Source of the DNA: a virus
Length of the DNA: 64,000 bases
Strand: one strand, 5' to 3'
Virus record (IMG/VR): IMGVR_UViG_3300032157_000001
Coordinates: 248,001-312,000 of that record
The notes under the pieces were generated by a model. That model was given only the letters and a program-made list of their open reading frames with translations. It ran no database searches and was not told where the DNA came from. The position numbers and the translations under genes were made by a program. This document shows, in pieces, positions 8,263 to 20,093 of the stretch (its first letter is position 1; each line of letters begins with the position of its first letter).

Positions 8263-8293
8263 GTATGCTAACGTACATTGTCCGGTTAAGGTT
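8263..8293 (-). promoter_or_regulatory. ECF-like promoter (GTACATTGT class) for 8237 operon
   Basis: Leftward AACCTTAACCGGACAATGTACGT: AAC-to-CGT spacing is 17 bp and the spacer carries the second operator-like element instead of CCAGTACTGG. A separate CCAGTACTGG sits upstream at 8326-8335. Confidence 0.7.
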
Positions 8294-8339
8294 ACGCTGT
8301 TTATACAGTTTGTTTAAAAATGTAACCAGTACTGGACTC

Positions 8340-8660: not shown

Positions 8661-8661
8661 T

Positions 8662-9165: not shown

Positions 9166-9377
9166 GCGTGGAGTTGTTTGTAGTATTTCTGTGCGGTTTC
9201 GAATCTCAGTTTGAATTCTTCAGCTAAGAGGTGTCCTCTCCTATTCACTTTCTTGGTGAGGTCTCTGATGATCTTTTGCTCTTCAGCGGTGCCGAACTTA
9301 TCGACCAAGAGTTGTGCTGCTTTGTTGTGCTCGTTTGCGGCTTCAAGCTTTTGATATACTTTCAGTAGTTGTTTCAT
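9162..9377 (-). CDS. Hypothetical helical protein, 71 aa
   Basis: Charged, entirely alpha-helical (MKQLLKVYQKLEAANEHNK), possibly a coiled coil. First gene of a three-gene leftward operon with its own promoter and CCAGTACTGG (9391-9400). Confidence 0.72.
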   Translation of the reverse strand: MKQLLKVYQKLEAANEHNKAAQLLVDKFGTAEEQKIIRDLTKKVNRRGHLLAEEFKLRFETAQKYYKQLHA

Positions 9378-9378
9378 G

Positions 9379-9409
9379 GTATTGATACGGCCAGTACTGG
9401 CTTAAGGTT
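9379..9409 (-). promoter_or_regulatory. ECF-like promoter with CCAGTACTGG for 9377 operon
   Basis: Leftward AACCTTAAGCCAGTACTGG then CGTATCAATACC; 17-bp AAC-to-CGT spacing; start codon close behind. Confidence 0.75.
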
Positions 9410-9462
9410 TCGTTGATTAGAGAATTATTAGAGATTTATTAGACCCTTAATTCAGGATGGAC

Positions 9463-9537
9463 AGAAAACCAAAAGGCCTCGGATTTCTCCGAAGCCTTAA
9501 GTAACCAAAGGAAACAACAACAGATTTGGTAACTAAT
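9463..9537 (-). ncRNA. Candidate antisense sRNA with loop complementary to the ACAACAACA leader
   Basis: Leftward transcript of about 75 nt. Hairpin 1 has the stem GUUACCAAA/UUUGGUUAC (one U-U mismatch) presenting the 15-nt loop UCUGUUGUUGUUUCC. Hairpin 2 is a 10-bp terminator stem AAGGCTTCGG/CCGAGGCCTT followed by TTTTGGTTTT. The loop is the exact complement of 9-13 nt in mRNA leaders of this region: 13 nt in the leader of 11182-11535, 11 nt at 18874, 19637 and 20410, 9 nt at 17250, 17815, 19125 and 20111. No ORF. Regulation in trans is inference. Confidence 0.6.
9472..9497 (-). terminator. Intrinsic terminator of the 9463-9537 RNA
   Basis: 10-bp stem with a 6-nt loop (AGAAAT on the minus strand), followed on the minus strand by a T-rich run. 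Confidence 0.75.
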
Positions 9538-9567
9538 GACTTATACGTAAACTCTGGTGAAATTGTT
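9538..9567 (-). promoter_or_regulatory. ECF-like promoter of the candidate sRNA
   Basis: Leftward AAC (9567-9565), 17 bp, CGTATAAGTCATTAG. Confidence 0.7.
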
Positions 9568-9589
9568 TAACGATAGTCGAAATTTCTTT

Positions 9590-9913
9590 TTAGACCATTC
9601 CAAGATGGCCAGACGGCTTAGACATCATCTTCAGAGTTGCACCTGTGAAGCCTTGTGCCTCCATGTCCTTTTCAAGCAGGGACATAATCTTCTTGCACAT
9701 TTCGTGTGCATCCTGATTGCGTGGATCGAAACGATAGTCCTCGCTGGCCACATGCTCTAACCATGCGAACATCAGTCGGGTAAAGCTTTGCTGATTGGTT
9801 CTGTGAAGACGTGACATCTCTTCGATGAACTGGTCAGTCCGTTTCCCCATGTTCAATACGTTCACGTAATTCTCAAGGGCATTGGCGAGTTTAAGAGCTT
9901 CTGAATTTTCCAT
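9590..9913 (-). CDS. Hypothetical helical protein, 107 aa
   Basis: Charged helical protein (MENSEALKLANALENYVN) with a C-terminal MMSKPSGHLGMV tail. Its start overlaps the upstream stop by one base. Function unknown. Confidence 0.75.
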   Translation of the reverse strand: MENSEALKLANALENYVNVLNMGKRTDQFIEEMSRLHRTNQQSFTRLMFAWLEHVASEDYRFDPRNQDAHEMCKKIMSLLEKDMEAQGFTGATLKMMSKPSGHLGMV

Positions 9914-10080
9914 TAGTCTTCTATTATTTTGTGTGCAATTTTGTTGTCAATTAAGAATTGTTCTAGTACTGGTGAATGTCTCATCACATTCCAATATCCT
10001 GAACGGTAAGCATTTTCAAATGGAAAACCTTTCTTCAGGTCTTGAAACTTCAGGTACTCGATGATAACAATCTTTTTCAT
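9913..10080 (-). CDS. Hypothetical protein, 55 aa
   Basis: Reads MKKIVIIEYLKFQDLKKGF and ends in FLIDNKIAHKIIED. It overlaps the next gene's start (TAATG), and part of it carries a CTAGTACTGG-like repeat copy. A small globular protein of unknown role. Confidence 0.65.
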   Translation of the reverse strand: MKKIVIIEYLKFQDLKKGFPFENAYRSGYWNVMRHSPVLEQFLIDNKIAHKIIED

Positions 10081-10087
10081 AGTTTTA

Positions 10088-10140
10088 AAGTTAAGAGAGT
10101 TGTGAGGACTTATTATAACTGCCTCACCACGAGGTTATGC
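10088..10140. terminator. Possible hairpin terminator between 10152 and 10080
   Basis: GTGAGG and CCTCAC pair across about 14 nt. A T-containing but not uniform tract follows leftward, so termination is uncertain. Confidence 0.35.
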
Positions 10141-10151
10141 TCTATGTGGGG

Positions 10152-10313
10152 TCATTCCCCGAAACTCGCTATATTGTTTTCTTCCATCCATTCTGTGACG
10201 ATGCGTTCAGCTTCTTCTCTGCACACACCCATCTCTCCCAATCCGAATTCAGGATTAGAAATTAGACTCTCGTAGATTTTTGTTACTAGATTATTGCGTT
10301 GTGCTTCAGTCAT
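10152..10313 (-). CDS. Hypothetical protein, 53 aa
   Basis: Reads MTEAQRNNLVTKIYESLISN, later GVCREEAERIVTEWMEEN; a small helical protein. It has a dedicated promoter 10 nt upstream. Function unknown. Confidence 0.65.
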   Translation of the reverse strand: MTEAQRNNLVTKIYESLISNPEFGLGEMGVCREEAERIVTEWMEENNIASFGE

Positions 10314-10314
10314 G

Positions 10315-10345
10315 GTATTAGAACGTACATTGTCCGGTTAAGGTT
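10315..10345 (-). promoter_or_regulatory. ECF-like promoter (GTACATTGT class) for 10313
   Basis: Leftward GCAACCTTAACCGGACAATGTACGTTCTAATAC split as AAC-N17-CGT. It overlaps the 3' end of gene 10338-10574. Confidence 0.7.
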
Positions 10346-10574
10346 GCGCGACCAGTACTGGTTTTTGTCTTTTAAATCTGAACACACCACTTTTGATTTC
10401 GCTGTAGGTCAGAACAAGCATGCCTCCTTGGAAGACATTTAGTTGTACCTGCTTGTCATCACACCATGCTACTTCAGCCGTCCTGTTAAGGATATTGGCC
10501 AGTACTTGAGGTGTTTGAGTGATGGTCAGCTTTGTCCCCACTTTGTAGGGAATTGTCTTTTTCTTGCTTTTCAT
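10338..10574 (-). CDS. Hypothetical small beta-rich protein, 78 aa
   Basis: Lys-rich start (MKSKKKTIPYKVGTKLTITQ) then beta strands; it resembles small SH3-like barrels. It follows the sigma-factor gene by 4 nt and is presumably co-transcribed with it, so a role with the sigma factor is possible but unproven. It contains a CCAGTACTGG copy (10352-10361). Confidence 0.7.
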   Translation of the reverse strand: MKSKKKTIPYKVGTKLTITQTPQVLANILNRTAEVAWCDDKQVQLNVFQGGMLVLTYSEIKSGVFRFKRQKPVLVAQP

Positions 10575-10578
10575 GGTC

Positions 10579-11112
10579 TTATGCGTGTACTGGTTTATTG
10601 AAGTATTCTTTCATCCTGTTCCGTGCGAAGTGCATCTTTGCCTTTACTGTTCCGATGGGTATACCCAACTCGGTAGCGATGTCCTCATAAGAGAATCCCA
10701 ATGCATACTGAGAGATGATCTCACCATCAGTGGCTGACAAGGTTTTGATTGCCTTGGTGATTTTTTCTTGAGACTCGTTTGTGATCAACTGATCCAGAGG
10801 ACTTGCCTCATCGGATGCAAAATCCATTTGGGCGTTGTCATGTTCAGAGTCGCTGATCATGTCAAACATTGACTTTGTTTCCAGCTTACGCTTTCTCAGG
10901 TAGTCGATGGTCGCATTGGTTGCGATATTGAAGACCCACGTTTTCATGGTTGCTTTTGTGGGATCGAACTTGTGCATATTGTGATACACTTTCACGAAGA
11001 CATCATTCACCAATTCTTCAGCGACCAACTGGTCATGAGTCTTTTTGAAGATGAAATTTTGAACTGATCTTTTGTTCTCTTTGTAGAACTTGTCGAAGAT
11101 TGTGGTTTCCAT
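10579..11112 (-). CDS. ECF-type RNA polymerase sigma factor
   Basis: 177 aa, typical for ECF sigma factors, which carry only the sigma2 and sigma4 regions. Sigma2 spans about residues 10-95 (AEELVNDVFVKVYHNMHKFDP, then TWVFNIATNATIDYLRKRK, the classic -10-binding helix). Sigma4 spans about 120-172 (LGFSYEDIATELGIPIGTVKAKMHFAR, a helix-turn-helix for the -35 element). It would redirect host RNA polymerase. Its own promoter belongs to the AAC-N17-CGT set, suggesting positive autoregulation. The sigma call is firm; the match to the promoter set is inferred. Confidence 0.92.
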   Translation of the reverse strand: METTIFDKFYKENKRSVQNFIFKKTHDQLVAEELVNDVFVKVYHNMHKFDPTKATMKTWVFNIATNATIDYLRKRKLETKSMFDMISDSEHDNAQMDFASDEASPLDQLITNESQEKITKAIKTLSATDGEIISQYALGFSYEDIATELGIPIGTVKAKMHFARNRMKEYFNKPVHA

Positions 11113-11141
11113 TAGATTATTTTCTGTTTATTGTTTCCTGA

Positions 11142-11172
11142 GTATTGATACGGCCAGTACTGGCTTAAGGTT
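11142..11172 (-). promoter_or_regulatory. ECF-like promoter with CCAGTACTGG for the sigma gene
   Basis: Leftward GTAACCTTAAGCCAGTACTGG then CGTATCAATAC; 17-bp spacing; palindrome at 11154-11163. Confidence 0.75.
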
Positions 11173-11181
11173 ACACCGAAG

Positions 11182-11535
11182 TTAATCTTCGTCGGGTAAA
11201 TTTGTCCTAAATGAATGATCTTCATCAGCTTCTTCGCTGTAGCTTTCGCGATCCTGATCATCAGTATAGCTTTCACGGTCTTGACCATCATCATCGATGT
11301 CGTTACCATCCATATCCATATTGAAGAATTCGGGATCACTACCTTGAGCTTTTACTGCTCTTACGGCATCCATACCTGTCAGGCTTTCATTGAATGTTTC
11401 ACCATCCAAGAATCTTCCAGACCAAGCACCTTCATTGCATTCTGCTGCAATACTCTCAAGAGATTGACTTTCGTCGATTGGTTCTTCGCTAAGAATTTCA
11501 AAGCGAATTACTGTGCGATAGATTTTCTTTTCCAT
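11182..11535 (-). CDS. Acidic hypothetical protein, 117 aa
   Basis: N-terminal MEKKIYRTVIRFEILSEEP strand, then an extremely acidic C-terminal third with repeated D-R-E-S-Y units (DDDGQDRESYTDDQDRESYS). Such tails are typical of nucleic-acid mimics or protein-binding disordered regions. Its leader AAACAACAACAGACAAATG has the longest match (13 nt) to the loop of the 9463-9537 RNA. Confidence 0.75.
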   Translation of the reverse strand: MEKKIYRTVIRFEILSEEPIDESQSLESIAAECNEGAWSGRFLDGETFNESLTGMDAVRAVKAQGSDPEFFNMDMDGNDIDDDGQDRESYTDDQDRESYSEEADEDHSFRTNLPDED

Positions 11536-11555
11536 TTGTCTGTTGTTGTTTGATA

Positions 11556-11586
11556 GTATTGATACGGCCAGTACTGGCTTAAGGTT
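11556..11586 (-). promoter_or_regulatory. ECF-like promoter with CCAGTACTGG for 11535
   Basis: Leftward AACCTTAAGCCAGTACTGG then CGTATCAATAC; 17-bp spacing; palindrome at 11568-11577. Confidence 0.75.
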
Positions 11587-11601
11587 TCATGATAAAATAA
11601 A

Positions 11602-11629
11602 AAAGACCAGAAAAAATCCTGGCCTTAAT
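11602..11629 (-). terminator. Intrinsic terminator after the 11658 gene
   Basis: On the minus strand GGCCAG and CTGGTC pair around a T-rich loop and are followed by TTTTTTATTTT. Confidence 0.75.
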
Positions 11630-11657
11630 TAAGAGAGGGAACGTACATTGTCCGGGT

Positions 11658-11819
11658 TTAGTCTCTGGACGTTGGAGCGGTGATTGCTCTTGCATGAGCT
11701 TTGGTATTCTTTGCGTGTACCTTGCTCTTGTGATACTTTCCGGACTGGACAGTAACAATCTGAGGGCCACACGAAGTCAATACCAATAAAACGATGACGA
11801 AGGATAAAAGGGTTTTCAT
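11658..11819 (-). CDS. Small lipoprotein, 53 aa
   Basis: Signal segment LLSFVIVLLVLTSCGP ends in a lipobox (L-T-S-C), so Cys 18 is the likely lipidated residue. The mature part is short, basic and Lys/His/Ala-rich (KYHKSKVHAKNTKAHARA). It probably sits in the envelope of the infected cell. It follows 11832-12095 by 12 nt in the same operon. Function unknown; superinfection exclusion or envelope modification are possibilities only. Confidence 0.68.
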   Translation of the reverse strand: MKTLLSFVIVLLVLTSCGPQIVTVQSGKYHKSKVHAKNTKAHARAITAPTSRD

Positions 11820-11831
11820 ATTAAAAAGGGT

Positions 11832-12095
11832 TTATTTGTTACCACTTAAAGACGGCTGTGGATATTTAAATTCCAGATGCCATCCGTTGAATTGCTGATC
11901 GAAGTTCATGCCTCCGATAATGTCACCACGATACCACACCACGACATTCCAGCCCGGAGTTGATGTAACGTCTGTACATTGTACCTCTGTTACTTCCAGC
12001 TTGTAGGTTGAATACTTCATTGTACCAACTTCCAGCTTGAGTTCACCACGTTGAATGAGGGTGAACAGATTTTCGATTCGTGTTGTTGTCTTCAT
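11832..12095 (-). CDS. Hypothetical protein, 87 aa
   Basis: Beta-rich, with aromatic residues (GWNVVVWYRGDIIGGMNF). First gene of a two-gene operon with the lipoprotein. The coding sequence contains a GTACAATGTAC palindrome (11974-11984). Confidence 0.72.
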   Translation of the reverse strand: MKTTTRIENLFTLIQRGELKLEVGTMKYSTYKLEVTEVQCTDVTSTPGWNVVVWYRGDIIGGMNFDQQFNGWHLEFKYPQPSLSGNK

Positions 12096-12096
12096 G

Positions 12097-12127
12097 GTAT
12101 TATTACGAACATTGTCCGGTTAAGGTT
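12097..12127 (-). promoter_or_regulatory. ECF-like promoter (GTACATTGT class) for 12095
   Basis: Leftward AACCTTAACCGGACAATGTTCGT: 17-bp AAC-to-CGT spacing. Confidence 0.7.
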
Positions 12128-12572
12128 ACACGATCTTTTCACAGATCATTGTACCCTCTCTGACCTTCAATCTTTCGATTTCACGTTCAAAGAATTCTCT
12201 ATGACTCTTATTGATAGGGTGACGAAATTCGTATTCAGCAAACCCAACTTCAACCACTTTCTTTGTGATTAGATCGGTAGCTCTTGCTCTGCGATTTTCA
12301 GACCAGTACGGGTGAAAGCCTTCGGCAAGGGATTGCTCATAGTGCTCTCTGCGTTTGGTCATTCCATCCTGCCAAATTTGCATCATTTCAGATACTGATC
12401 TATTGGGCTGGAAAGCTTCAAGTTGTGGAGGTGTGAATTCAACGCTTGCCGATGTACCATCAGCATAACGAAAATGAAACATTGCATGGTAGTCGTATGT
12501 TTGCATAACGTATTGCTGCAATTCGGTTGCTTGTACTACCTTGTACTGATCTTGTTTGAGATTGAATACCAT
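12126..12572 (-). CDS. Hypothetical protein, 148 aa
   Basis: Alpha/beta protein with an aromatic middle (YDYHAMFHFRYADGTSASVE) and a long charged C-terminal helix. It follows 12577-12873 by 4 nt. No family recognised. Confidence 0.75.
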   Translation of the reverse strand: MVFNLKQDQYKVVQATELQQYVMQTYDYHAMFHFRYADGTSASVEFTPPQLEAFQPNRSVSEMMQIWQDGMTKRREHYEQSLAEGFHPYWSENRRARATDLITKKVVEVGFAEYEFRHPINKSHREFFEREIERLKVREGTMICEKIV

Positions 12573-12576
12573 GACT

Positions 12577-12873
12577 TTAAGATTTTGCTTTTAATTCACC
12601 AATAAGAAATAAGCCAATGATCCTGAGAGGACGACCGCAATTAGGATTCTCATACCAGTACTTGGCAGAGTCCAGCCATTGTTCTTTTGTGAACGTTGAC
12701 TTGTCGTAAGCTTCAAGGAATTCTTTGTAGTTCAGGCAAGTACCATAAGAGTCGGTATGCCTTGAGGACATTTCGTCCATCATCCAGCAGAAGACTGGTC
12801 GTCCAGTACTGGACTCATACCCTTGCAGGTAGTCTTCCATTTCCCATGCGTCTTTTCCTATTATTGTTTCCAT
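12577..12873 (-). CDS. Hypothetical protein, 98 aa
   Basis: Aromatic and acidic protein (MEDYLQGYESSTGRPVFCWM; later WLDSAKYWYENPNCGRPL). It contains CCAGTACTGG (12803-12812) in frame, encoding an S-S-T-G turn. First gene of a two-gene operon. Function unknown. Confidence 0.75.
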   Translation of the reverse strand: METIIGKDAWEMEDYLQGYESSTGRPVFCWMMDEMSSRHTDSYGTCLNYKEFLEAYDKSTFTKEQWLDSAKYWYENPNCGRPLRIIGLFLIGELKAKS

Positions 12874-12874
12874 A

Positions 12875-12905
12875 GTATTAATACGCAGGGTACTATCTTA
12901 AGGTT
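12875..12905 (-). promoter_or_regulatory. ECF-like promoter for 12873
   Basis: Leftward GCAACCTTAAGATAGTACCC then CGTATTAATAC; 17-bp AAC-to-CGT spacing; the spacer holds a diverged palindrome. Confidence 0.72.
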
Positions 12906-13092
12906 GCATTTTCTTTTTAAGTACTTGCAATGTTTGCCAGTCTTGATTCATTTTCTTTCGAGACTTGAAACTATAGTGATGCCTAGTCGTTCCATCGAAG
13001 CCAACTATTTCATTTGTAGCTTCACGTCTCTCCCATCTCATAGAGAGAAACCTTTGATCTTTTAGATCGTGTGTTAGATTCGTATTGTTCAT
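12898..13092 (-). CDS. Hypothetical basic protein, 64 aa
   Basis: Start taken at the ATG of MNNTNLTHDLKDQRF, 10 nt after the promoter, rather than an upstream non-ATG codon. Lys/Arg-rich C-terminus (SFKSRKKMNQDWQTLQVLKK). Function unknown. Confidence 0.68.
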   Translation of the reverse strand: MNNTNLTHDLKDQRFLSMRWERREATNEIVGFDGTTRHHYSFKSRKKMNQDWQTLQVLKKKMQP

Positions 13093-13093
13093 A

Positions 13094-13124
13094 CTGATCA
13101 AACGTACATTGTCCGGTTAAGGTT
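13094..13124 (-). promoter_or_regulatory. ECF-like promoter (GTACATTGT class) for 13092
   Basis: Leftward CAACCTTAACCGGACAATGTACGT; 17-bp AAC-to-CGT spacing. Confidence 0.7.
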
Positions 13125-13437
13125 GTGTTTTGCCGAATTCAATAGCAAGATTAAACAAGGTTGAGGTTGAAATGTCATACACAATTAGGTTGCGTCCTTT
13201 CAATTCAAACTTAATCCCTTTGAGTGCAAAGAATTCTCTGAGTTCTTTACGATCAACTATTGTGTGTGTCATTTTTGTACATTGTACATTGTCCAACACT
13301 TCGCGAACGTGTGTCATCATTAAATGTGACTCATGATCTGAATGCACAGGTAAACCGTGCTCATAGCTATCGTAATCAACAGCTATTCGATGCAGCCCTG
13401 TAATAATTTGATCGATTTCTACATCAGTGATTTTCAT
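13117..13437 (-). CDS. Hypothetical protein, 106 aa
   Basis: Helical N-terminal half with clustered His (HSDHESHLMMTHVREVL) and an alpha/beta C-terminal half (LKGIKFELKGRNLIVYD). It overlaps 13434-13670 by ATGA. A tandem GTACATTGTACATTGTCC sits inside the gene at about 13277-13294. Confidence 0.73.
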   Translation of the reverse strand: MKITDVEIDQIITGLHRIAVDYDSYEHGLPVHSDHESHLMMTHVREVLDNVQCTKMTHTIVDRKELREFFALKGIKFELKGRNLIVYDISTSTLFNLAIEFGKTQP

Positions 13438-13670
13438 TGTACATTGTCCGTTTTAGGTACAAAGTAAGAGCCATTCAAACGGCCAACATCGGTAACACCT
13501 TCCATTGCATAGGTCAATCTCACAGAGCAGTTTATTCCGTCCGCAATCCCTTGTGCAACCTCTGTAGGGTTTGGAATGTTTAGTGTTATTGGTTTTATGT
13601 CATCCCAAACTTGTGCGTTAGGATTTAGTTCTTTATTCCAAATTTGAATATTAACTTTTGTTGATTCCAT
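13434..13670 (-). CDS. Hypothetical protein, 78 aa
   Basis: Beta-rich (STKVNIQIWNKELNPNAQVW). Leader ATAAACAACAAGACAATG. First gene of a two-gene operon. A GTACATTGTCC element lies at its 3' end. Function unknown. Confidence 0.7.
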   Translation of the reverse strand: MESTKVNIQIWNKELNPNAQVWDDIKPITLNIPNPTEVAQGIADGINCSVRLTYAMEGVTDVGRLNGSYFVPKTDNVQ

Positions 13671-13686
13671 TGTCTTGTTGTTTATA

Positions 13687-13717
13687 GTATTAGAACGTAC
13701 ATTGTCCGGTTAAGGTT
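13687..13717 (-). promoter_or_regulatory. ECF-like promoter (GTACATTGT class) for 13670
   Basis: Leftward GTAACCTTAACCGGACAATGTACGTTCTAATAC read as AAC-N17-CGT. Confidence 0.7.
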
Positions 13718-13720
13718 ACG

Positions 13721-13921
13721 TTATCCGAAAATTGCTTTACGATTAAATTGCTTGGCGTATTCACGTGCAGTTTTCTTATCAGGTACTGGAACTTCCGTGA
13801 GTGTCCCGAACTCATACATTTTGTTTGGGTTAATCGGTTGGTTGTCCTGCGTTAGCTTCGTGATATAGAAGCCACCTTCGTCTTTGAAGAACATTGTTAA
13901 TTCAGTGTCAGTTGTTTTCAT
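13721..13921 (-). CDS. Hypothetical protein, 66 aa
   Basis: Small alpha/beta protein (TELTMFFKDEGGFYITKLTQ). Start overlaps the upstream gene by ATGA. Function unknown. Confidence 0.7.
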   Translation of the reverse strand: MKTTDTELTMFFKDEGGFYITKLTQDNQPINPNKMYEFGTLTEVPVPDKKTAREYAKQFNRKAIFG

Positions 13922-14139
13922 TGTGCGTAAGTGTTAGAAGTTATTAAATGTACATTGTCCGAAGTCTCATAGGTCAGTCCCTTTATTGGTTGTGTATACT
14001 CGATAACCCAACGACCAAAGCCAGTACTTAATTCAGACATGTAGTCGATAGCTGTTTGCAGATCGACTGCAGCAACAAGGGCAATACCACTACCGTATTC
14101 AACGTCATAGGTAAATTCCCATACTTGTAAGGTTCTCAT
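13918..14139 (-). CDS. Hypothetical protein, 73 aa
   Basis: Start taken at MRTLQVWEFTYDVEYGSG, 5 nt after the GP88-family gene's stop; the longer frame would overlap that gene. A compact alpha/beta protein (ALVAAVDLQTAIDYMSEL). GTACATTGTCC elements flank it at about 13950 and 14162. Probably co-transcribed with 14144-14944. Confidence 0.7.
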   Translation of the reverse strand: MRTLQVWEFTYDVEYGSGIALVAAVDLQTAIDYMSELSTGFGRWVIEYTQPIKGLTYETSDNVHLITSNTYAQ

Positions 14140-14143
14140 TGTC

Positions 14144-14944
14144 TTAAGCGTTAACAGTTTGTACATTGTCCGTTATCGTTACGTGAGTCAGGTTGTTAAC
14201 CTGAATCACGAACTTACTCTTTTGCATAGCGATATTGTTTTCGCGGTTTGCGATATGTTTCCAACGCAAGCCAACGATAGTGCCTTGTTCATCCATTGGT
14301 CTGTAGTCGGTTAAGTCACCATCGATAACCTTAACACCGTTGAAAGTTTCCGGCAAAGCTTTGCCCTTCTTAGTGTCAAAGATGGCTGCAATGTTAATAC
14401 CTTGCGCCAAAGCTTGCTCACATTCGTTCCAATTGTAACCAGTATAGGAGAAAGTTAAGTGATAATTTTTGTACTTCGATACCAACCGTGAACGGTTAAG
14501 GACTTTCGTATAGTCATAGAATTGCACGTCCGGAAACACTTCGAGAATGTTTTGGCCAAAGAACTTGAAAATTTCAGGATTAAGATCAGACGTTCCGTTC
14601 AAACGGATTGCAAACTCCATGCCTTTACGTTGTGCCTTGTTTTTTGCCAAGGTAATTTCCCTGACAAGTAAGTTCATAAATGCATCCCTTTGCTCATAAA
14701 AAGCTTTGGTTCTGTTAATACGTGCGTTAACGATAGTCCCTTTTTTGTCCATCTTAACACGTCCGGACGTATTTAAACAGCCCATAATGCACTCTTTTGT
14801 TGCCTTGGCACAAACGTTGTGACCAGACAAGTCATAAGGTGCAAAGTAAATTGCATAGGTAGCAAGGTTAATACTTTTACCCTTTGCGATTTTGGCAGTT
14901 AAGTTTGTTCCGCCAATGTAAGAAAAATTGAAGTTGTGTTTCAT
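14144..14944 (-). CDS. GP88-family-like phage protein, 266 aa
   Basis: Start chosen at MKHNFNFSYIGGTN because the ACAACAACAAAACA leader precedes it. Seen: LTAKIAKGKSINLATYAIYFAP, a Cys cluster HNVCAKATKECIMGCLNTSGR (split here, C-x6-C-x3-C), then NRTKAFYEQRDAFMNLL and RLNGTSDLN. The same order (Cys cluster, N/Q-R-T-x-x, R-x-N-x-x-x-D) occurs in the longer protein at 26827-28014, so the two are distant relatives of the phage gene product 88 family, whose function is not established. The Cys residues could bind a metal or Fe-S centre. Confidence 0.65.
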   Translation of the reverse strand: MKHNFNFSYIGGTNLTAKIAKGKSINLATYAIYFAPYDLSGHNVCAKATKECIMGCLNTSGRVKMDKKGTIVNARINRTKAFYEQRDAFMNLLVREITLAKNKAQRKGMEFAIRLNGTSDLNPEIFKFFGQNILEVFPDVQFYDYTKVLNRSRLVSKYKNYHLTFSYTGYNWNECEQALAQGINIAAIFDTKKGKALPETFNGVKVIDGDLTDYRPMDEQGTIVGLRWKHIANRENNIAMQKSKFVIQVNNLTHVTITDNVQTVNA

Positions 14945-14963
14945 TGTTTTGTTGTTGTCGTTG

Positions 14964-14994
14964 GTATTGATACGCACTGCAGATTCTTAAGGTT
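14964..14994 (-). promoter_or_regulatory. ECF-like promoter for 14944
   Basis: Leftward GCAACCTTAAGAATCTGCAG then CGTATCAATACC; 17-bp AAC-to-CGT spacing; the spacer is a third type, shared with the promoter at 15105-15135. Confidence 0.75.
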
Positions 14995-15019
14995 GCAAAA
15001 TAACTGCAGTATTTTTATC

Positions 15020-15105
15020 GATATGAATTAGATGGATTTTTACTTTTGATCATCCTCTCCTTTGGTTTTCGTCCCCTCTCTTACTTGCCTTTCGAGCGTT
15101 CATAG
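15020..15105 (-). ncRNA. Small RNA family member B
   Basis: Leftward segment aligned to member A: GCAAGTAAGAGAGG core and an identical TGATCAAAAGTAAAAATCC tail. It contains a 17-codon ORF starting ATGAACGCTCGAAAG, so a micropeptide remains possible for this member. Confidence 0.45.
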
Positions 15106-15135
15106 TATTAATACGCAAAGCAGATTCTTAAGGTT
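15105..15135 (-). promoter_or_regulatory. ECF-like promoter for small RNA B
   Basis: Leftward CAACCTTAAGAATCTGCTTTG then CGTATTAATAC; 17-bp spacing. Confidence 0.7.
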
Positions 15136-15161
15136 GTCTTAATTAAGAAAAAGATTTTTGA

Positions 15162-15192
15162 AACCTTAAGACCAGTACTGGCGTATCAATAC
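15162..15192 (+). promoter_or_regulatory. ECF-like promoter with CCAGTACTGG for 15194
   Basis: AACCTTAAGACCAGTACTGG then CGTATCAATACC; 17-bp spacing; palindrome at 15172-15181. It faces away from the leftward block, so divergent transcription starts here. Confidence 0.75.
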
Positions 15193-15193
15193 C

Positions 15194-15271
15194 ATGAGAC
15201 ACAAGATAATAACCTTCGCAATCTTCGCAACGATGGTAATAGTTACTATGCTGTGCGGAATTAATTTTTAA
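15194..15271 (+). CDS. Membrane micropeptide, 25 aa
   Basis: MRHKIITFAIFATMVIVTML followed by CGINF. One hydrophobic helix with a Cys near the end. It has its own promoter directly before the ATG, which supports real expression despite its size. It could be an inner-membrane micropeptide. Confidence 0.5.
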   Translation: MRHKIITFAIFATMVIVTMLCGINF

Positions 15272-15279
15272 AACAACGT

Positions 15280-15310
15280 AACCTTAACAACGGTCTGACC
15301 GTTTCAATAC
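15280..15310 (+). promoter_or_regulatory. ECF-like promoter for 15312
   Basis: AACCTTAACAACGGTCTGAC then CGTTTCAATAC; 17-bp spacing. Confidence 0.7.
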
Positions 15311-15311
15311 T

Positions 15312-15866
15312 ATGACAACAATAATTCTAACAACCGACGAAGTAAAAGCAAGGCTTTTTACTTTGCTTGCTGGCCAAGTAACACCTAAGTTCATATCTGT
15401 AAAGAACTACATGAACAACGATGGTGAACTTTCAAACTACGTTATCAACATTGGTGTTGACTATGGCAAAGCCAAAGAATCAGATACCGAAACTTTGAGG
15501 GATGCAAAGAACTTCGAAGGAATTGATTTCGGTAAGGTGAAAGCTTACAGCGAGGACGCGAGAATCGCATTGCTCACGGCTATTTTAAAGCCCTCCAATC
15601 AAAGTGCTGCACAATCGGACGCATATACTACAATTTGCCCGAACGTGCGTCTCCACAATGAAACCGGACGTATATACGTCTCTGGTTTTAAGATTTCAAA
15701 ATCTGTTTTGGTTGCTACCGACTACGGAGCGGACACAAGGCAAAACCTGACAATCGCAAAGGACAAAATTCGTGCTACCTTGAAAGCCACACAATTTAGA
15801 CAATTCTGCTTTGACAAGCTTGTCGAAATCCGGATGAACGGTGAAACTTTGGAGTTCGATTTTTAA
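15312..15866 (+). CDS. Hypothetical protein, 184 aa
   Basis: Alpha/beta protein without membrane segments. Beta-strand-like parts VRLHNETGRIYVSGFKISKS lie in the second half. It has its own promoter. First substantial gene of the rightward block. No family recognised. Confidence 0.78.
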   Translation: MTTIILTTDEVKARLFTLLAGQVTPKFISVKNYMNNDGELSNYVINIGVDYGKAKESDTETLRDAKNFEGIDFGKVKAYSEDARIALLTAILKPSNQSAAQSDAYTTICPNVRLHNETGRIYVSGFKISKSVLVATDYGADTRQNLTIAKDKIRATLKATQFRQFCFDKLVEIRMNGETLEFDF

Positions 15867-15887
15867 AAAATGTGTGAGTCCCCTTGC

Positions 15888-15918
15888 AACCTTAGCGAGG
15901 GGACTTGCGTATTAATAC
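15888..15918 (+). promoter_or_regulatory. ECF-like promoter for 15938
   Basis: AACCTTAGCGAGGGGACTTG then CGTATTAATAC; 17-bp spacing. It lies within a CCCCT/AGGGG hairpin that may also terminate 15312. Confidence 0.7.
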
Positions 15919-15937
15919 TATGAACAACAACAAAACA

Positions 15938-16270
15938 ATGGAACACTTCAATTTTGAAAAGCATACCTGCCGTCAATTCGATGACGTGAAAGGTTTAATG
16001 GGATTCTTCAACGCACACAAAGCTATCGTGTGGTCATGGGCTGCACGTGGTTGGACGGTCGATAAAGACCACAAGGTATTGAGACTTCGCGTTAGCGGTC
16101 ACCACCATAAAGGGTATGTGTGGATAACCGTAAACGGCTCTGACTTGTTTGACATCTACTTCACAAACCTGAAGGGAGAAATCAAGAAAGAAGCTAAAGA
16201 CGTTTACCTTGACATGCTTATCGATACCATTGACGTACACGTCGAACGGATAGCGGCATACGTTCGCTAA
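15938..16270 (+). CDS. Hypothetical protein, 110 aa
   Basis: Start chosen at MEHFNFEKHTCRQF because the ACAACAACAAAACA leader precedes it; an in-frame ATG at 15920 lies in that leader. Aromatic alpha/beta protein (IVWSWAARGWTVDKDHKVLR; HHHKGYVWITVNGSD). Function unknown. Confidence 0.75.
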   Translation: MEHFNFEKHTCRQFDDVKGLMGFFNAHKAIVWSWAARGWTVDKDHKVLRLRVSGHHHKGYVWITVNGSDLFDIYFTNLKGEIKKEAKDVYLDMLIDTIDVHVERIAAYVR

Positions 16271-16274
16271 ACTT

Positions 16275-16315
16275 AAAATTGCATAATAACTCAAGGGGAG
16301 TTATTGTGCAATTTT
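16275..16315. terminator. Bidirectional terminator
   Basis: An 18-bp stem (AAAATTGCATAATAACTC pairing with GAGTTATTGTGCAATTTT) around a 5-nt loop, A-rich on one side and T-rich on the other. It serves the rightward gene 15938 and the leftward small RNA C. Confidence 0.85.
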
Positions 16316-16415
16316 CGGTTTATTATGTTGAAGGCGAACAAGATACACCTCTGAAAAATTCTCCGCTCGGTTTTCCTTGGCTCGGCTCTCCTACTTGCAT
16401 TGTGTGCGTTCGTAT
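16316..16415 (-). ncRNA. Small RNA family member C
   Basis: Leftward segment with the core GCAAGTAGGAGAGCCGAGCC, then AAGGAAAACCGAGCGGAG and TTTTTCAGAG, aligned almost base for base to member D on the opposite strand at 19940-20035. It runs into the bidirectional terminator at 16275-16315. Confidence 0.55.
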
Positions 16416-16446
16416 GTATATTAACGGCTCATCCCTAATTAAGGTT
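16416..16446 (-). promoter_or_regulatory. ECF-like promoter for small RNA C
   Basis: Leftward GTAACCTTAATTAGGGATGAG then CGTTAATATAC; 17-bp spacing and the RNA-family -10 variant. Confidence 0.72.
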
Positions 16447-16472
16447 ACATGAAAAAATAAAAATCTTTATGA

Positions 16473-16503
16473 AACCTTAAGCCAGTACTGGCCGTATTAA
16501 TAC
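16473..16503 (+). promoter_or_regulatory. ECF-like promoter with CCAGTACTGG for 16505
   Basis: AACCTTAAGCCAGTACTGG then CGTATTAATACC; 17-bp spacing; palindrome at 16482-16491. Confidence 0.75.
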
Positions 16504-16504
16504 C

Positions 16505-16771
16505 ATGAGATTCAAGAAAATAGTAGGTGCAAAGAGATTCACCCAAAAGGCAATAACCAAAACAACAAGGACGTGGGCATTCTACTACGTCATTGATCGT
16601 GGTGCCGACTTGCAAGTCCTTAACACGTTTGAGTGCAAACAACCTGCACGGACTAACGTATACAAACAACTTCAAAAGAAGTGGAACGACAAAGGAGTAA
16701 CAGCAATCGGTTATACTACCGACCTGAACGATCCTTTTTTAGTGTGGCCACAAACTCAAATGAAACCTTAA
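16505..16771 (+). CDS. Hypothetical basic protein, 88 aa
   Basis: Basic N-terminus (MRFKKIVGAKRFTQKAITK) and aromatic beta-rich body (RTWAFYYVIDRGADLQV). It has its own promoter 1 nt upstream of the start region, so the transcript is nearly leaderless. Function unknown. Confidence 0.73.
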   Translation: MRFKKIVGAKRFTQKAITKTTRTWAFYYVIDRGADLQVLNTFECKQPARTNVYKQLQKKWNDKGVTAIGYTTDLNDPFLVWPQTQMKP

Positions 16772-16794
16772 GCCAGTACTGGCCGTATTAATAC
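16764..16794 (+). promoter_or_regulatory. ECF-like promoter with CCAGTACTGG for 16797
   Basis: AACCTTAAGCCAGTACTGG then CGTATTAATAC; 17-bp spacing; the -35 overlaps the 3' end of 16505; palindrome at 16773-16782. Confidence 0.75.
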
Positions 16795-16796
16795 GT

Positions 16797-16979
16797 ATGG
16801 AAACAGTCTTAAAACATATCTCTTCAATAGTCGCTGGTGATACCATCATTCACAATGGAGAAATGAAAACAGTATCCGGCAATAACATCAAGTTTGATTC
16901 TTGCATGGGTAAGACCTTGTTTGGAGATAGCTATAATTTAGGACATAAGAAAGTAATAAAGGTAACAGTAATAGGATGA
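16797..16979 (+). CDS. Hypothetical protein, 60 aa
   Basis: METVLKHISSIVAGDTIIHN then GEMKTVSGNNIKFDS: a small beta-rich, SH3- or hint-like module. Its stop overlaps the next start (ATGA). Function unknown. Confidence 0.68.
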   Translation: METVLKHISSIVAGDTIIHNGEMKTVSGNNIKFDSCMGKTLFGDSYNLGHKKVIKVTVIG

Positions 16980-17200
16980 CACAAGCTACAACCAAATTAA
17001 GACCAGCACATGAGTTTAATGTGGGTGACAACATAACTGTATTCGATCCGCATACATCAGTTGCTCCCTTTATGTGGCCGACTGCTTGTTACGTTCAAGC
17101 TATTGACGGTGACTATTACATAATGCGCAAGCGATCATTCACCGATACTCAAACTTTTCGTGTCGGCAAATATTATCCGCACATGCAAAAAGAATCGTAA
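16976..17200 (+). CDS. Hypothetical small beta-rich protein, 74 aa
   Basis: Contains FNVGDNITVFDPHTSVAPFM, which parallels VAGDTIIHN of the preceding gene and VRVGKEYTFNPVMWD of the next; the three may be diverged copies of one small beta-barrel fold. Coupled to 16797 by a 4-nt overlap. Confidence 0.68.
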   Translation: MTQATTKLRPAHEFNVGDNITVFDPHTSVAPFMWPTACYVQAIDGDYYIMRKRSFTDTQTFRVGKYYPHMQKES

Positions 17201-17229
17201 CCTTAAGATCAGTACCTGCGTATCAATAC
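17199..17229 (+). promoter_or_regulatory. ECF-like promoter for 17250
   Basis: AACCTTAAGATCAGTACCTG then CGTATCAATACC; 17-bp spacing; diverged palindrome in the spacer. Confidence 0.73.
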
Positions 17230-17249
17230 CATAAGACAACAACAAAACA

Positions 17250-17468
17250 ATGGCAACAATCAACAAAGTAAGAGTCGGGAAAGAATACACTTTCAATCCC
17301 GTAATGTGGGACGTATGCGATCCAAAGACTACCCTGAAAAAAGGCGACAAGGTAACCGTGGTAAATCTTCGTGGTTGTCCTCCCGCTAACACTATGGGTC
17401 ACTGTCACGTGAACTTCAACGGTCAGTTTGCTGGTTTGGTTCATTGCAACTCTTTAATAGACGAATAG
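17250..17468 (+). CDS. Hypothetical small beta-rich protein, 72 aa
   Basis: Leader AAGACAACAACAAAACAATG. Body VRVGKEYTFNPVMWDVCD and KKGDKVTVVNLRGCPPAN suggests a small beta barrel with two Cys. Function unknown. Confidence 0.7.
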   Translation: MATINKVRVGKEYTFNPVMWDVCDPKTTLKKGDKVTVVNLRGCPPANTMGHCHVNFNGQFAGLVHCNSLIDE

Positions 17469-17470
17469 TC

Positions 17471-17767
17471 ATGTATCCAAATTACGATACTTCGTCTCCC
17501 GGAAGTCCAATAGCTGAGAATCAAAAACTTCCTTCTGAATTAATAGAAGGACACGTACAACGATTCATAATGATTCAGATTGAAGCATTGGCATACGGTA
17601 TGGCCAAACCTGCAAAGGTTAAAAGTGATTTGCAAGGAGTTGCTTACTTCATTAGATGTTGTGCTGGTGTGCATGCACGGTTAGCCGTATCGAATGAAGT
17701 CGATAGGTTGTGCAGACTGACCAATAAACAATTAGTCGCAGCAGCAAAAAAAACTTTTAAAGGTTAG
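17471..17767 (+). CDS. Hypothetical helical protein, 98 aa
   Basis: Start taken at MYPNYDTSSPGSPI, 2 nt after the previous stop. Mostly helical (RFIMIQIEALAYGMAKPAKV) with GVAYFIRCCAGVHARLAV in the middle. Same operon as 17250. Function unknown. Confidence 0.72.
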   Translation: MYPNYDTSSPGSPIAENQKLPSELIEGHVQRFIMIQIEALAYGMAKPAKVKSDLQGVAYFIRCCAGVHARLAVSNEVDRLCRLTNKQLVAAAKKTFKG

Positions 17768-17768
17768 T

Positions 17769-17799
17769 AACCTTACCAGTACCTGACTCGTATCAATAC
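17769..17799 (+). promoter_or_regulatory. ECF-like promoter for 17815
   Basis: AACCTTACCAGTACCTGACT then CGTATCAATACC; 17-bp spacing. Confidence 0.73.
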
Positions 17800-17814
17800 C
17801 ATAAGACAACAACA

Positions 17815-18153
17815 ATGGAAAAAATAACACAACCGAACCCTGAGAAAGATGCGATAGTCGCACGGGTTCTAATTCACACTAACAACTTCAAATTGCTCAA
17901 AGCTCAAAAGGCTCTGCTTGTAAACATGCAAAGCAAAAAGAGCACGACCGAGGCAGAATGGAACGCTATTGAAGGAATCGTGAACATGATTGACGCGATA
18001 CAGGATATTGCTTGCGATCATTACAACTTTGATCCTAACGAAGTTTTTAACTTCACCAATGAAGTCGACACTACCGTTAAAATGTCACTCGCAGAATGCC
18101 GCAAGGTCGTTATGAGTGAAGATGATGGGGACGAATACTTCAACTGGAAATAA
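17815..18153 (+). CDS. Hypothetical helical protein, 112 aa
   Basis: Helical and acidic (EKDAIVARVLIHTNNFKLLK; later VNMIDAIQDIACDHYNFDP). Leader AAGACAACAACAATGG. Followed by a structured RNA element (18156-18259) and a terminator. Function unknown. Confidence 0.75.
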   Translation: MEKITQPNPEKDAIVARVLIHTNNFKLLKAQKALLVNMQSKKSTTEAEWNAIEGIVNMIDAIQDIACDHYNFDPNEVFNFTNEVDTTVKMSLAECRKVVMSEDDGDEYFNWK

Positions 18154-18155
18154 GA

Positions 18156-18259
18156 CTTGCAGCCCGTTTATTTGTAAACGTCAAACGATGCAAGAAACGC
18201 AAGGCCAGCCATAGGCTGGAAAGTAGTGGGCTGTTTTATCGTGATCCCACTAACGGGCT
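18156..18259 (+). ncRNA. Structured 3'-UTR RNA with pseudoknot potential
   Basis: CTTGCA (18156) pairs with TGCAAG (18189). Inside that loop GCCCG (18162-18166) can pair with CGGGC (18254-18258), an H-type pseudoknot. Two perfect hairpins lie between: CCAGCC/GGCTGG with an ATA loop (18205-18219) and AGTGGG/CCCACT (18225-18251). It lies between a stop codon and an intrinsic terminator, so it is transcribed with 17815. No known class recognised. Confidence 0.55.
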
Positions 18260-18282
18260 AAAATATTGTTGTTTTGTTGTCT

Positions 18283-18313
18283 AAAGGGGAGCTTGTTACT
18301 CCCCTTTTCTTTT
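18283..18313 (+). terminator. Intrinsic terminator
   Basis: AAAGGGGAG and CTCCCCTTT pair around a 7-nt loop, followed by TTCTTTTT. Confidence 0.85.
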
Positions 18314-18371
18314 TATACCCGATCAGGTATAATACCTTACCAATACTGGAAAGATATACCCGAACGGGTGC

Positions 18372-18402
18372 AACCTTAATTCAGGATGCATCGTATTAAT
18401 AC
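18372..18402 (+). promoter_or_regulatory. ECF-like promoter for 18405
   Basis: AACCTTAATTCAGGATGCAT then CGTATTAATACC; 17-bp spacing; the spacer element TTCAGGATG recurs at 9450 and as TTCAGACTG at 20071. Confidence 0.72.
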
Positions 18403-18404
18403 CT

Positions 18405-18503
18405 ATGAAGACAACAACAATTATCTTTCTAATGATCGCACTAGGCATGAGATACTTTAACTATGTCATGTGGTTTGTAACAACTTTCATTTGCAGACCG
18501 TAA
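18405..18503 (+). CDS. Membrane micropeptide, 32 aa
   Basis: MKTTTIIFLMIALGMRYFNY then VMWFVTTFICRP: one or two short hydrophobic segments. Own promoter; its stop codon is part of the -35 of the next promoter. Role unknown. Confidence 0.5.
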   Translation: MKTTTIIFLMIALGMRYFNYVMWFVTTFICRP

Positions 18504-18532
18504 CCTTAAGCCAGTACTGGACGTATCAATAC
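18502..18532 (+). promoter_or_regulatory. ECF-like promoter with CCAGTACTGG for 18548
   Basis: AACCTTAAGCCAGTACTGG then CGTATCAATACC; 17-bp spacing; palindrome at 18511-18520. Confidence 0.75.
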
Positions 18533-18547
18533 CATAACAACAAAACA

Positions 18548-18826
18548 ATGGAAACAACAATCGCAACTCTCCCCGACTTTTCAAAGATGACCATCGCCGA
18601 AATCGCTTGCCGTATTGATGCGGATTGGAGAAAGCAAAAGGGTGGCATCAGTATCTATGCCAAAGAGCAATTAAAGGCTATGCTTTGGATTCAGCAAATC
18701 ACTGACAAGTATATCTCTGATGACGGTTATGGCGTAGTGGGTAGCTTCTTATGCAATGCCACAACGTGGAAAGGTGAAACCGCAAGGGCAATAAAAAAAG
18801 AATTGAACAAAAGACTGAAAGCGTAA
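18548..18826 (+). CDS. Hypothetical protein, 92 aa
   Basis: Start taken at METTIATLPDFSKMT after an ACAACAAAACA leader; an upstream extension would run through the promoter. Helical body (IACRIDADWRKQKGGISIYA) with a basic C-terminal end. Function unknown. Confidence 0.75.
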   Translation: METTIATLPDFSKMTIAEIACRIDADWRKQKGGISIYAKEQLKAMLWIQQITDKYISDDGYGVVGSFLCNATTWKGETARAIKKELNKRLKA

Positions 18827-18855
18827 CCTTACGCTTTCTCTCTCCGTATCAATAC
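18825..18855 (+). promoter_or_regulatory. ECF-like promoter for 18874
   Basis: AACCTTACGCTTTCTCTCTC then CGTATCAATAC; 17-bp spacing. Confidence 0.72.
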
Positions 18856-18873
18856 TATAAAACAACAACAAAA

Positions 18874-18963
18874 ATGAAAACGACCTTTTATAAACTCCTT
18901 GGCCTAGTGATAATGCTCGGCTCTGCAAGCGTAACGATCTCACTTATCGTATTAGCGTTATGA
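18874..18963 (+). CDS. Membrane micropeptide, 29 aa
   Basis: MKTTFYKLLGLVIMLGSASV followed by TISLIVLAL: a single hydrophobic helix. Leader AAAACAACAACAAAAATG. The stop overlaps the next micropeptide's ATG (ATGA), so the two are coupled. Confidence 0.52.
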   Translation: MKTTFYKLLGLVIMLGSASVTISLIVLAL

Positions 18964-19040
18964 CACAAAAAATTAAAGAACGATTGCTTGGCCTAGTCAT
19001 TGCGATCTTCGATCTGATTTTCATCTTAATCATGTACTAA
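18960..19040 (+). CDS. Membrane micropeptide, 26 aa
   Basis: MTQKIKERLLGLVIAIFDLI followed by FILIMY: an amphipathic start and a hydrophobic helix. LLGLVI also occurs in the preceding peptide (LLGLVIM), hinting at duplication. It could act as a two-peptide membrane unit. Followed by a strong terminator. Confidence 0.5.
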   Translation: MTQKIKERLLGLVIAIFDLIFILIMY

Positions 19041-19045
19041 CTTAA

Positions 19046-19078
19046 ACAAGGGGACGAAATAGTCCCCTTTTTTTTTGT
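19046..19078 (+). terminator. Intrinsic terminator
   Basis: AAGGGGAC and GTCCCCTT pair around a short loop, followed by a run of T. Confidence 0.85.
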
Positions 19079-19109
19079 AACCTTAAGCCAGTACTGGCCG
19101 TATTAATAC
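19079..19109 (+). promoter_or_regulatory. ECF-like promoter with CCAGTACTGG for 19125
   Basis: AACCTTAAGCCAGTACTGG then CGTATTAATACC; 17-bp spacing; palindrome at 19088-19097. Confidence 0.75.
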
Positions 19110-19124
19110 CATAAGACAACAACA

Positions 19125-19379
19125 ATGAAAACTAAATCACTTATCAACAAAACAGCCAAAGCAGTCCGGAAGGAATTTGCTGCGACTATGCCCAAAGATG
19201 CGACACTGATTGACATCATTTGGAGCTTGCCCACAATAGCCGTAAACCTCCCTAATGGCTCAGAGTACTTCTTCCAAGGTGAAGAAGCTGCTGGTATGCT
19301 TGAAGCTGCTGTAGAGGCCTCTAATGAGTTCCAGTGCAACGTTGAAGACGTGATACTATTCATGTCTAAATCTTGGTAG
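19125..19379 (+). CDS. Hypothetical protein, 84 aa
   Basis: Leader AAGACAACAACAATG. Mixed alpha/beta (KDATLIDIIWSLPTIAVNLP) then a helical Ala-rich end (EEAAGMLEAAVEASNEF). Two nt before the next gene. Function unknown. Confidence 0.73.
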   Translation: MKTKSLINKTAKAVRKEFAATMPKDATLIDIIWSLPTIAVNLPNGSEYFFQGEEAAGMLEAAVEASNEFQCNVEDVILFMSKSW

Positions 19380-19381
19380 TC

Positions 19382-19597
19382 ATGGTAAAATACATCGTAC
19401 AAAAAGAAGACATTGGTAAAGGAGGATTAACACCTCTTATAACTACTTGCAAATGTTGTGGTGTAATATCGACAACCAGACCATTCGAACCCCTTGGACG
19501 TGTTCAAGCTTGTGACGTTGGCAAAATGCTTAAGCTTGTAAATGGTATTTGGTATGCTGAAAATAACGAACAATTCAAAAAGAGAACGCAACCTTAA
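19382..19597 (+). CDS. Hypothetical protein with CxCC motif, 71 aa
   Basis: Start at MVKYIVQKEDIGKGG. The segment TTCKCCGVISTT with a later Cys (QACDVG) could be a minimal zinc-binding knuckle. Operon with 19125. Function unknown. Confidence 0.7.
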   Translation: MVKYIVQKEDIGKGGLTPLITTCKCCGVISTTRPFEPLGRVQACDVGKMLKLVNGIWYAENNEQFKKRTQP

Positions 19598-19620
19598 GCC
19601 AGTACTGGACGTATCAATAC
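19590..19620 (+). promoter_or_regulatory. ECF-like promoter with CCAGTACTGG for 19637
   Basis: AACCTTAAGCCAGTACTGG then CGTATCAATAC; 17-bp spacing; palindrome at 19599-19608; overlaps the end of 19382. Confidence 0.75.
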
Positions 19621-19636
19621 TATAAACAACAACAAT

Positions 19637-19897
19637 ATGTTAAGCATTGAAATCGTATCACTCACAAGCTTCATGCAGGTTGAACCAGTACTGAGATACT
19701 TGGTAGCAAATCACCCGAAGTACAAAGCACGTGCAGAGCAAAAAAGAATCATCGCTCTCCCTTGCCGTCAGTATACAATCGGTGACAATCCCGCACACTT
19801 CTACAAAGTGGAAGACATTAAGAACTGGTTAAAAGAACCTCAATTTGTCCGGGAGATGGAATGCGAAGTAACCACTCATATGGTAAAAGAAGCTTAA
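19637..19897 (+). CDS. Hypothetical protein, 86 aa
   Basis: Leader AAACAACAACAATATG (11-nt match to the sRNA loop). Body VEPVLRYLVANHPKYKARAE and PCRQYTIGDNPAHFYKVED. Function unknown. Confidence 0.73.
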   Translation: MLSIEIVSLTSFMQVEPVLRYLVANHPKYKARAEQKRIIALPCRQYTIGDNPAHFYKVEDIKNWLKEPQFVREMECEVTTHMVKEA

Positions 19898-19917
19898 AGA
19901 AATCTAACGGGTGACGT

Positions 19918-19948
19918 AACCTTAACCGGAACGTCCCCGTTAATATAC
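19918..19948 (+). promoter_or_regulatory. ECF-like promoter for small RNA D
   Basis: AACCTTAACCGGAACGTCCC then CGTTAATATAC; 17-bp spacing and the RNA-family -10 variant. Confidence 0.72.
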
Positions 19949-20035
19949 TTACCAACGCAGTAACACTGATAAGGGAGAGCCGAACCAAGGACATTCGAGC
20001 AGAGGATTTCTCAGAGAACCGTCCTTTAAAAAAAA
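19940..20035 (+). ncRNA. Small RNA family member D
   Basis: Contains GGGAGAGCCGAACCAAGGAC, GAGCAGAGGATTTCTCAGAG and a terminator-like pairing AAGGAC/GTCCTT followed by an A-run. Homologous to member C. No start codon near the promoter. The following CCAGTACTGG is at 20049-20058. Confidence 0.55.
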
Positions 20036-20062
20036 GTCGAAAATATATCCAGTACTGGACGC

Positions 20063-20093
20063 AACCTTAATTCAGACTGAGCCGTATTAATAC
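20063..20093 (+). promoter_or_regulatory. ECF-like promoter for 20111
   Basis: AACCTTAATTCAGACTGAGC then CGTATTAATAC; 17-bp spacing. Confidence 0.73.

Follow-up and report, generated by a model that had tools for sequence, protein, structure and literature searches.

A candidate small RNA gene of a giant phage with a loop antisense to the leaders of many phage mRNAs

The minus strand of a 371.5-kb virus record carries what appears to be a compact small RNA (sRNA) gene, and the loop of the predicted RNA is complementary to C/A-rich leaders that precede many genes of the same phage. The window analysed here is the 64,000-nt stretch at positions 248001-312000 of this record, and positions are those of the window unless stated otherwise. 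We consider it probable, at roughly 60%, that the RNA acts in trans as a GcvB-like translational repressor that masks ACA enhancer leaders working independently of a Shine-Dalgarno (SD) sequence, and that it damps the gene programme read from one of two phage promoter classes (class 1). The original prediction of an sRNA candidate with a loop antisense to many phage mRNA leaders is supported, as far as the sequence can tell, by the promoter class, the fold, the complementarity, the positions of the targets across the genome and a second element conserved in a relative. Three points were absent from that prediction: the leader of a sigma factor gene as the strongest predicted target, the differing promoter class of the RNA, and the presence of further anti-leader elements. 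The features are collected in Table 1.

Table 1. Features of the candidate sRNA gene, its predicted targets and related elements (positions in the window)
Feature	Position	Strand	Remark
Class-2 promoter AACAATTTCACCAGAGTTTACGTATAA upstream of the sRNA	9541..9567	-	exact pattern match
sRNA candidate, ~75-78 nt	9463..9540	-	start near 9540-9537, judging by the promoter
Anti-leader loop UCUGUUGUUGUUUCC, 15 nt	9510..9524	-	unpaired in the MFE and centroid structures
Intrinsic terminator hairpin, 11 pairs	9473..9498	-	U tail interrupted
Class-1 promoter cluster, AACCTTA-N13-CGTATNAATAC	9379..20093	both	leadered genes
Phage ECF-like sigma factor gene (P0001)	10579..11112	-	Pfam Sigma70_r2 and Sigma70_r4_2; PHROG sigma factor
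Predicted target: sigma-gene leader GGAAACAATAAACAGA	11123..11138	-	duplex -17.4
Predicted target: AAACAACAACAGA leader of gene 11182-11535 (117 aa)	11539..11551	-	13-nt perfect complement
Predicted target: 5' end and start codon of gene 12577-12873, GGAAACAATAATAGGA	12856..12871	-	best non-self site of the blind scan, -18.2
Second anti-leader element ATTGTTGTTTTGTTGTCT, directly before a terminator hairpin	18264..18307	+	structured 3' region after gene 17815-18153

The window can be assigned to a giant T4-like phage. Identity between its terminase and the one of a 366-kb relative, labelled G001, is 71%; among named relatives, Flavobacterium phages come closest, with 26% identity. SD-like sequences were found at 1 of 67 starts in the window against a background of 4.7%, and A is enriched at positions -3, -6 and -13 of the starts. 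A comparable SD depletion with A-rich positions was described for the starts of Flavobacterium johnsoniae (PMC6847099), and because of this resemblance the phage host is likely a member of the Bacteroidota. The depletion also lends support to one part of the earlier claim that a leader replaces the SD sequence at the leadered starts. Homologues of the sRNA at the DNA level were found neither in phage records nor in viral contigs, and a search of viral contigs with a neighbouring protein or the sigma factor alone returned no relatives. The exact class-1 promoter pattern occurred in five viral contigs with one match each, which is about the chance expectation, and these were dropped. GP88 relatives in cellular genomes were likewise set aside; in the one from Bacteroidetes, neither these promoters nor the leader cluster are present.

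The layout proposed for the sRNA gene, with a promoter, a loop hairpin and a terminator on the minus strand between 9567 and 9463, was confirmed. For the minus strand of 9463-9537 the folding energy is -23.9 kcal/mol (z = -4.05), and none of 200 shuffled sequences was equally stable. The loop UCUGUUGUUGUUUCC is closed by stem arms at 9534-9525 and 9509-9500, and the terminator that follows ranks highest by G-C pairs within 5-22 kb. It had been called perfect, which holds for the 11-pair hairpin as a good one and is too strong for the terminator as a whole because its U tract is broken (UUGGUUUUCU). A peptide-coding role was rejected, as the element holds no ORF of useful length; with its own promoter, an intrinsic terminator and no ORF, it has the make-up of a trans-acting sRNA gene. 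Rfam gave nothing at the gathering threshold in the window and nothing for the sRNA at E values up to 1, and a search by sequence and structure did not place the candidate in the GcvB family.

No more than about 50 nt separate the element from the end of the leftward gene 9590-9913 (-), which lies upstream on the same strand, and the element could be read as the 3' end and terminator of this gene, a chance hairpin with a low-complexity U/G stretch that has no regulatory role. Intrinsic terminators are ordinary and the motif is of low complexity, as this reading would have it, but an exact class-2 promoter lies between the gene and the hairpin. Together with the results on complementarity that are given below, this makes the reading unlikely.

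The AAC-N17-CGT promoter of the candidate is real and specific, as had been predicted. It is one of 8 exact copies of the class-2 pattern AACnnnTTn9TTACGTATAA in the 371-kb record, and when two mismatches are allowed the pattern has 31 sites against 5 for a reversed control. The same promoter type is also used in G001. The class-1 pattern is confined almost entirely to the cluster in Table 1, where 22 of its 23 matches in the record fall, and control hits were zero. The mRNAs of this cluster have ACAACAACA leaders or carry ACAACA among their first codons. Since the leadered genes use class-1 promoters and the sRNA a class-2 promoter, the promoter class of the RNA differs from that of its presumed targets.

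In the window ACAACAACA has 16 sites, most of which precede an ATG or follow a class-1 promoter. Many class-1 transcripts seem nearly leaderless, with the ATG only a few nucleotides past the expected start (15162, 15280, 16473, 16764, 12905, 9409 and others), and several of these carry the ACAACA in early codons; the position of the element therefore appears to be fixed to the 5' end and not to the ATG. The leaders of the predicted targets are nearly unstructured.

A recalculation confirmed the lengths of complementarity given in the original prediction: 13 nt for the gene 11182-11535, 11 nt for those starting at 18874 and 19637, and 9 nt for many others; for 20410, the listing has the same 11-nt AAACAACAACA ahead of the start. 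Against the 5' ends of 29 class-1 mRNAs the loop has a mean duplex energy of -11.3 kcal/mol, compared with -7.15 +/- 0.84 for shuffled loops, and 0 of 1000 shuffles were as good. This result argues against a hairpin that merely ends gene 9590-9913. Perfect pairing over at least 9 nt was found for 13 of the 29 class-1 5' ends, for none of 14 class-2 leaders and for 1 of 300 random segments. When both strands of the 64 kb were scanned blindly, the top three non-self sites were all class-1 5' ends, which make up 0.8% of the windows in that scan: those of gene 12873 (-18.2), the sigma gene 11112 (-17.4) and gene 11535 (-17.0). In a stricter rerun that barred sites with the central 11-mer, and thereby dropped the 11535 site, the loop kept two of its top three sites in class-1 5' ends, a result matched by 1 of 110 shuffles. 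Chance is thus an unlikely source of the match between loop and leaders. A caveat is that ACAACA leaders are common and of low complexity, so that any U/G-rich stretch matches many of them. A genome-wide search with 14 nt and two mismatches gave 26 hits against 27 for the reversed control, the reversed pattern being itself leader-like, and many of the 9-nt pairings reach about -13 kcal/mol as duplexes, which is modest after the cost of opening the hairpin.

The strongest predicted target is the ECF-like sigma factor gene, which has a class-1 promoter at 11172, lies 1 kb from the sRNA gene and has an ortholog in G001 that is 38% identical. All 15 bases of the loop can pair with GGAAACAAUAAACAGA of its leader, with one bulge and one G-U pair, and none of 2000 shuffled loops did as well. 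When the full-length RNA was cofolded with its predicted targets, the sigma leader ranked first at -21.1, compared with -19.9 for the best of 400 random segments. The predicted pairing spans the leaders up to or across the AUG.

Besides the sRNA itself, the 371-kb record has the perfect 13-nt complement AAACAACAACAGA at three places, all of them just ahead of an AUG: the distance is 1 nt for an ORF of 231 aa, 2 nt for one of 485 aa and 3 nt for the 117-aa gene 11535. The 231-aa ORF is located directly upstream of a DnaB-like helicase gene, and the 485-aa ORF encodes an SbcD-like exonuclease (PHROG 704, E 1e-75). If positions were random, three of three at starts would have a probability of about 1e-5, but ACAACAACA is enriched in the leaders of this phage (10 of 18), so that the figure makes the result look more significant than it is. 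That the perfect complement stands only at start codons also speaks against a loop without a regulatory role. The loop matches several leaders, at 259.5, 68.9 and 138.6 kb of the record, and not one adjacent target, unlike cis-antisense RNAs of the c4 and sar type. No exact copy of AAACAACAACAGA is present in G001, where the leader of the SbcD-like gene is CAACAAAGAAACGA. A third promoter-like motif, about TATnTTTACGAnnAG, was seen upstream of SbcD-like orthologues (L099 at about 400-465, L117 and L122).

Among the relatives, only G001 offers a region that can be compared, and the 75-nt gene did not turn up there; G001 does possess a class-1 region of its own, in which the leaders are of the AACAAC type. 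The lack of both the gene and an exact AAACAACAACAGA fits a joint absence, in one relative. A DNA hit at 186063 of G001 was rejected as an sRNA homologue, being a class-2 promoter ahead of an ORF. The second anti-leader element of the window is conserved: 18264-18307 (AUUGUUGUUUUGUUGUCU and the terminator) aligns to G001 165249-165198 at 79%, and the G001 counterpart follows the last gene of a run whose first gene resembles, by eye, the window gene 17815-18153. The best site of the G001 copy in 100 kb of that genome is a class-1 leader (-28.6). When 54 terminators of both phages were ranked by leader complementarity, the two window elements came first and second once the entry at 266838, which overlaps a class-1 promoter, had been discarded; this is a further point against an ordinary terminator of gene 9590-9913. 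The longer 3'UTR elements lacked specificity for class-1 leaders in blind energy scans of the window, and they are therefore used as supporting evidence only.

Anti-leader tails may act mainly in cis or derive from 3'UTRs, by folding back on class-1 leaders or by processing, with 9463-9537 being the copy that gained a promoter. This differs from a trans-acting repressor only in the source of the RNA, and both 18264-18307 and the G001 element at about 165.2 kb do lie in 3' regions directly before terminators. However, the RNA at 9463-9537 has its own promoter, and the leaders that match it best are on transcripts other than its own, in some cases at a distance of 120-190 kb; we regard such an origin as rather improbable. 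Far less credible is that the loop serves as a decoy or sponge, protects or activates phage messages as a stabiliser, or targets host RNAs: a short leader that is paired near its 5' end might be shielded against decay, and phage sRNAs that titrate host sRNAs exist (AgvB against GcvB, PMC12197685), but the pairing reaches or crosses the AUG, where sRNA pairing usually blocks initiation.

As a trans-acting repressor, the RNA would be made as a separate transcript of 9463-9540 (-) from the class-2 phage promoter. Its 15-nt G/U-rich loop would find its partners in class-1 mRNAs and a few others, namely their C/A-rich leaders of the ACAACAACA and GGAAACAAUA types, which are short and unstructured. 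Since such a leader lacks structure and takes up almost the whole 5'UTR, pairing over it to the AUG or beyond would cover the ribosome entry site and block ribosome loading, and the ACA-type element used by mRNAs without an SD sequence would be silenced. Once class-2 transcription is on, the class-1 programme, which is probably early, would be damped or shut off together with the sigma gene. This role appears likely because the sigma gene is the best target and the sRNA has a different promoter class. Production of the transcript, its pairing inside the cell, a repressive and not an activating effect, and the timing are inferred, as is the earlier suggestion that pairing switches translation of a regulon. 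More tentatively, giant phages of this group might possess a regulon-wide anti-leader system in which several short RNAs and 3' tails are antisense to the ACAACA leader that substitutes for the SD sequence, and in which the class-2-driven RNA shuts off the class-1 programme including sigma and tunes replication and repair genes.

If the repressor model is correct, one loop matched to a shared leader would provide post-transcriptional control of a phage gene set that lacks SD sequences, and the RNA would link two phage promoter classes. It would also extend the principle of GcvB and ACA enhancers to phage development and offer a directly testable case of the silencing of SD-less messages. A wider theme is suggested by the second element, which is conserved although the two giant phages have diverged.

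GcvB of enteric bacteria is a chromosomal RNA of about 200 nt that depends on Hfq. It controls amino-acid genes through SD-containing mRNAs, whereas the candidate is 75 nt long, phage-encoded, aimed at the SD-poor leaders of the phage and at a sigma gene, and without an Rfam match. The likeness lies in a G/U-rich single-stranded region that pairs, in the candidate by prediction, with ACA-rich elements by the starts of many mRNAs; the unpaired G/U-rich region of the candidate is complementary to such elements near several start codons. In Salmonella, GcvB masks translation-enhancing ACA motifs by pairing, and initiation can be promoted by ACAA repeats even where an SD sequence is missing (PMC3879156). 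The c4 RNA of phages P1 and P7 blocks translation of a phage mRNA (PMC12197685). The original prediction knew of no described equivalent, a statement that has to be withdrawn as the silencing of ACA motifs by GcvB (PMC3879156) and c4 RNA (PMC12197685) are close analogues. Like the candidate, c4 is a phage-encoded small RNA with loop complementarity, and the region of the phage mRNA to which it pairs surrounds the ribosome binding site. Its one target, in the control of immunity, is the ant mRNA, whereas the candidate matches many leaders of several promoter classes. Gram-positive multi-target sRNAs such as RsaE of Staphylococcus have C-rich (UCCC) anti-SD loops. There too a single exposed loop matches a ribosome-recruiting element common to many mRNAs, but the element is the SD sequence, in contrast to the ACAACA leader here; a UCCC motif is also mentioned for Listeria (PMC12282133). 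The prophage sRNA AgvB is a phage-borne RNA within the GcvB pairing code (PMC12197685), but it mimics the mRNA side and titrates GcvB, while the candidate has the sRNA side.

Several other non-coding and repeat elements were observed nearby. At 7449-7012 (-) a class-2 promoter heads a structured non-coding region of roughly 410 nt with a terminator, which has a homologue in G001 (L078, about 4340-4800). Within it, 7318-7248 is a tRNA-like domain (Rfam tRNA, 37.6 bits, E 1.4e-5), whose D loop is very small and whose anticodon appears to be CUA; this domain was not called by ARAGORN and matched no other Rfam family. Directly after class-1 promoters, both phages carry a short-RNA repeat with the common sequence AAGTAGGAGAGCCGA...AAGGAAA, at 6430-6536 (-), 15029-15136 (-), 16349-16448 (-) and 19915-20016 (+) in the window and at L056 149-270 and L074 near 171.15 and 172.26 kb in G001. 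At least one copy ends in a terminator and SD-like purine runs are present, making the repeat a candidate conserved sRNA family. A palindrome, CCAGTACTGG, occurs in 29 copies, and the motifs GTACATTGT and ACATTGTCC are repeated in promoter spacers and inside ORFs. These three repeats are found at about 4000-28000, most densely at 4000-12000, and are almost absent elsewhere in the window; they are possibly an operator or another recognition site. Additionally, a structured stretch without an ORF at 6740-6930 (-) ends in an inverted repeat of the GGCCAGTACTGG type and a T run, and may be a non-coding RNA.
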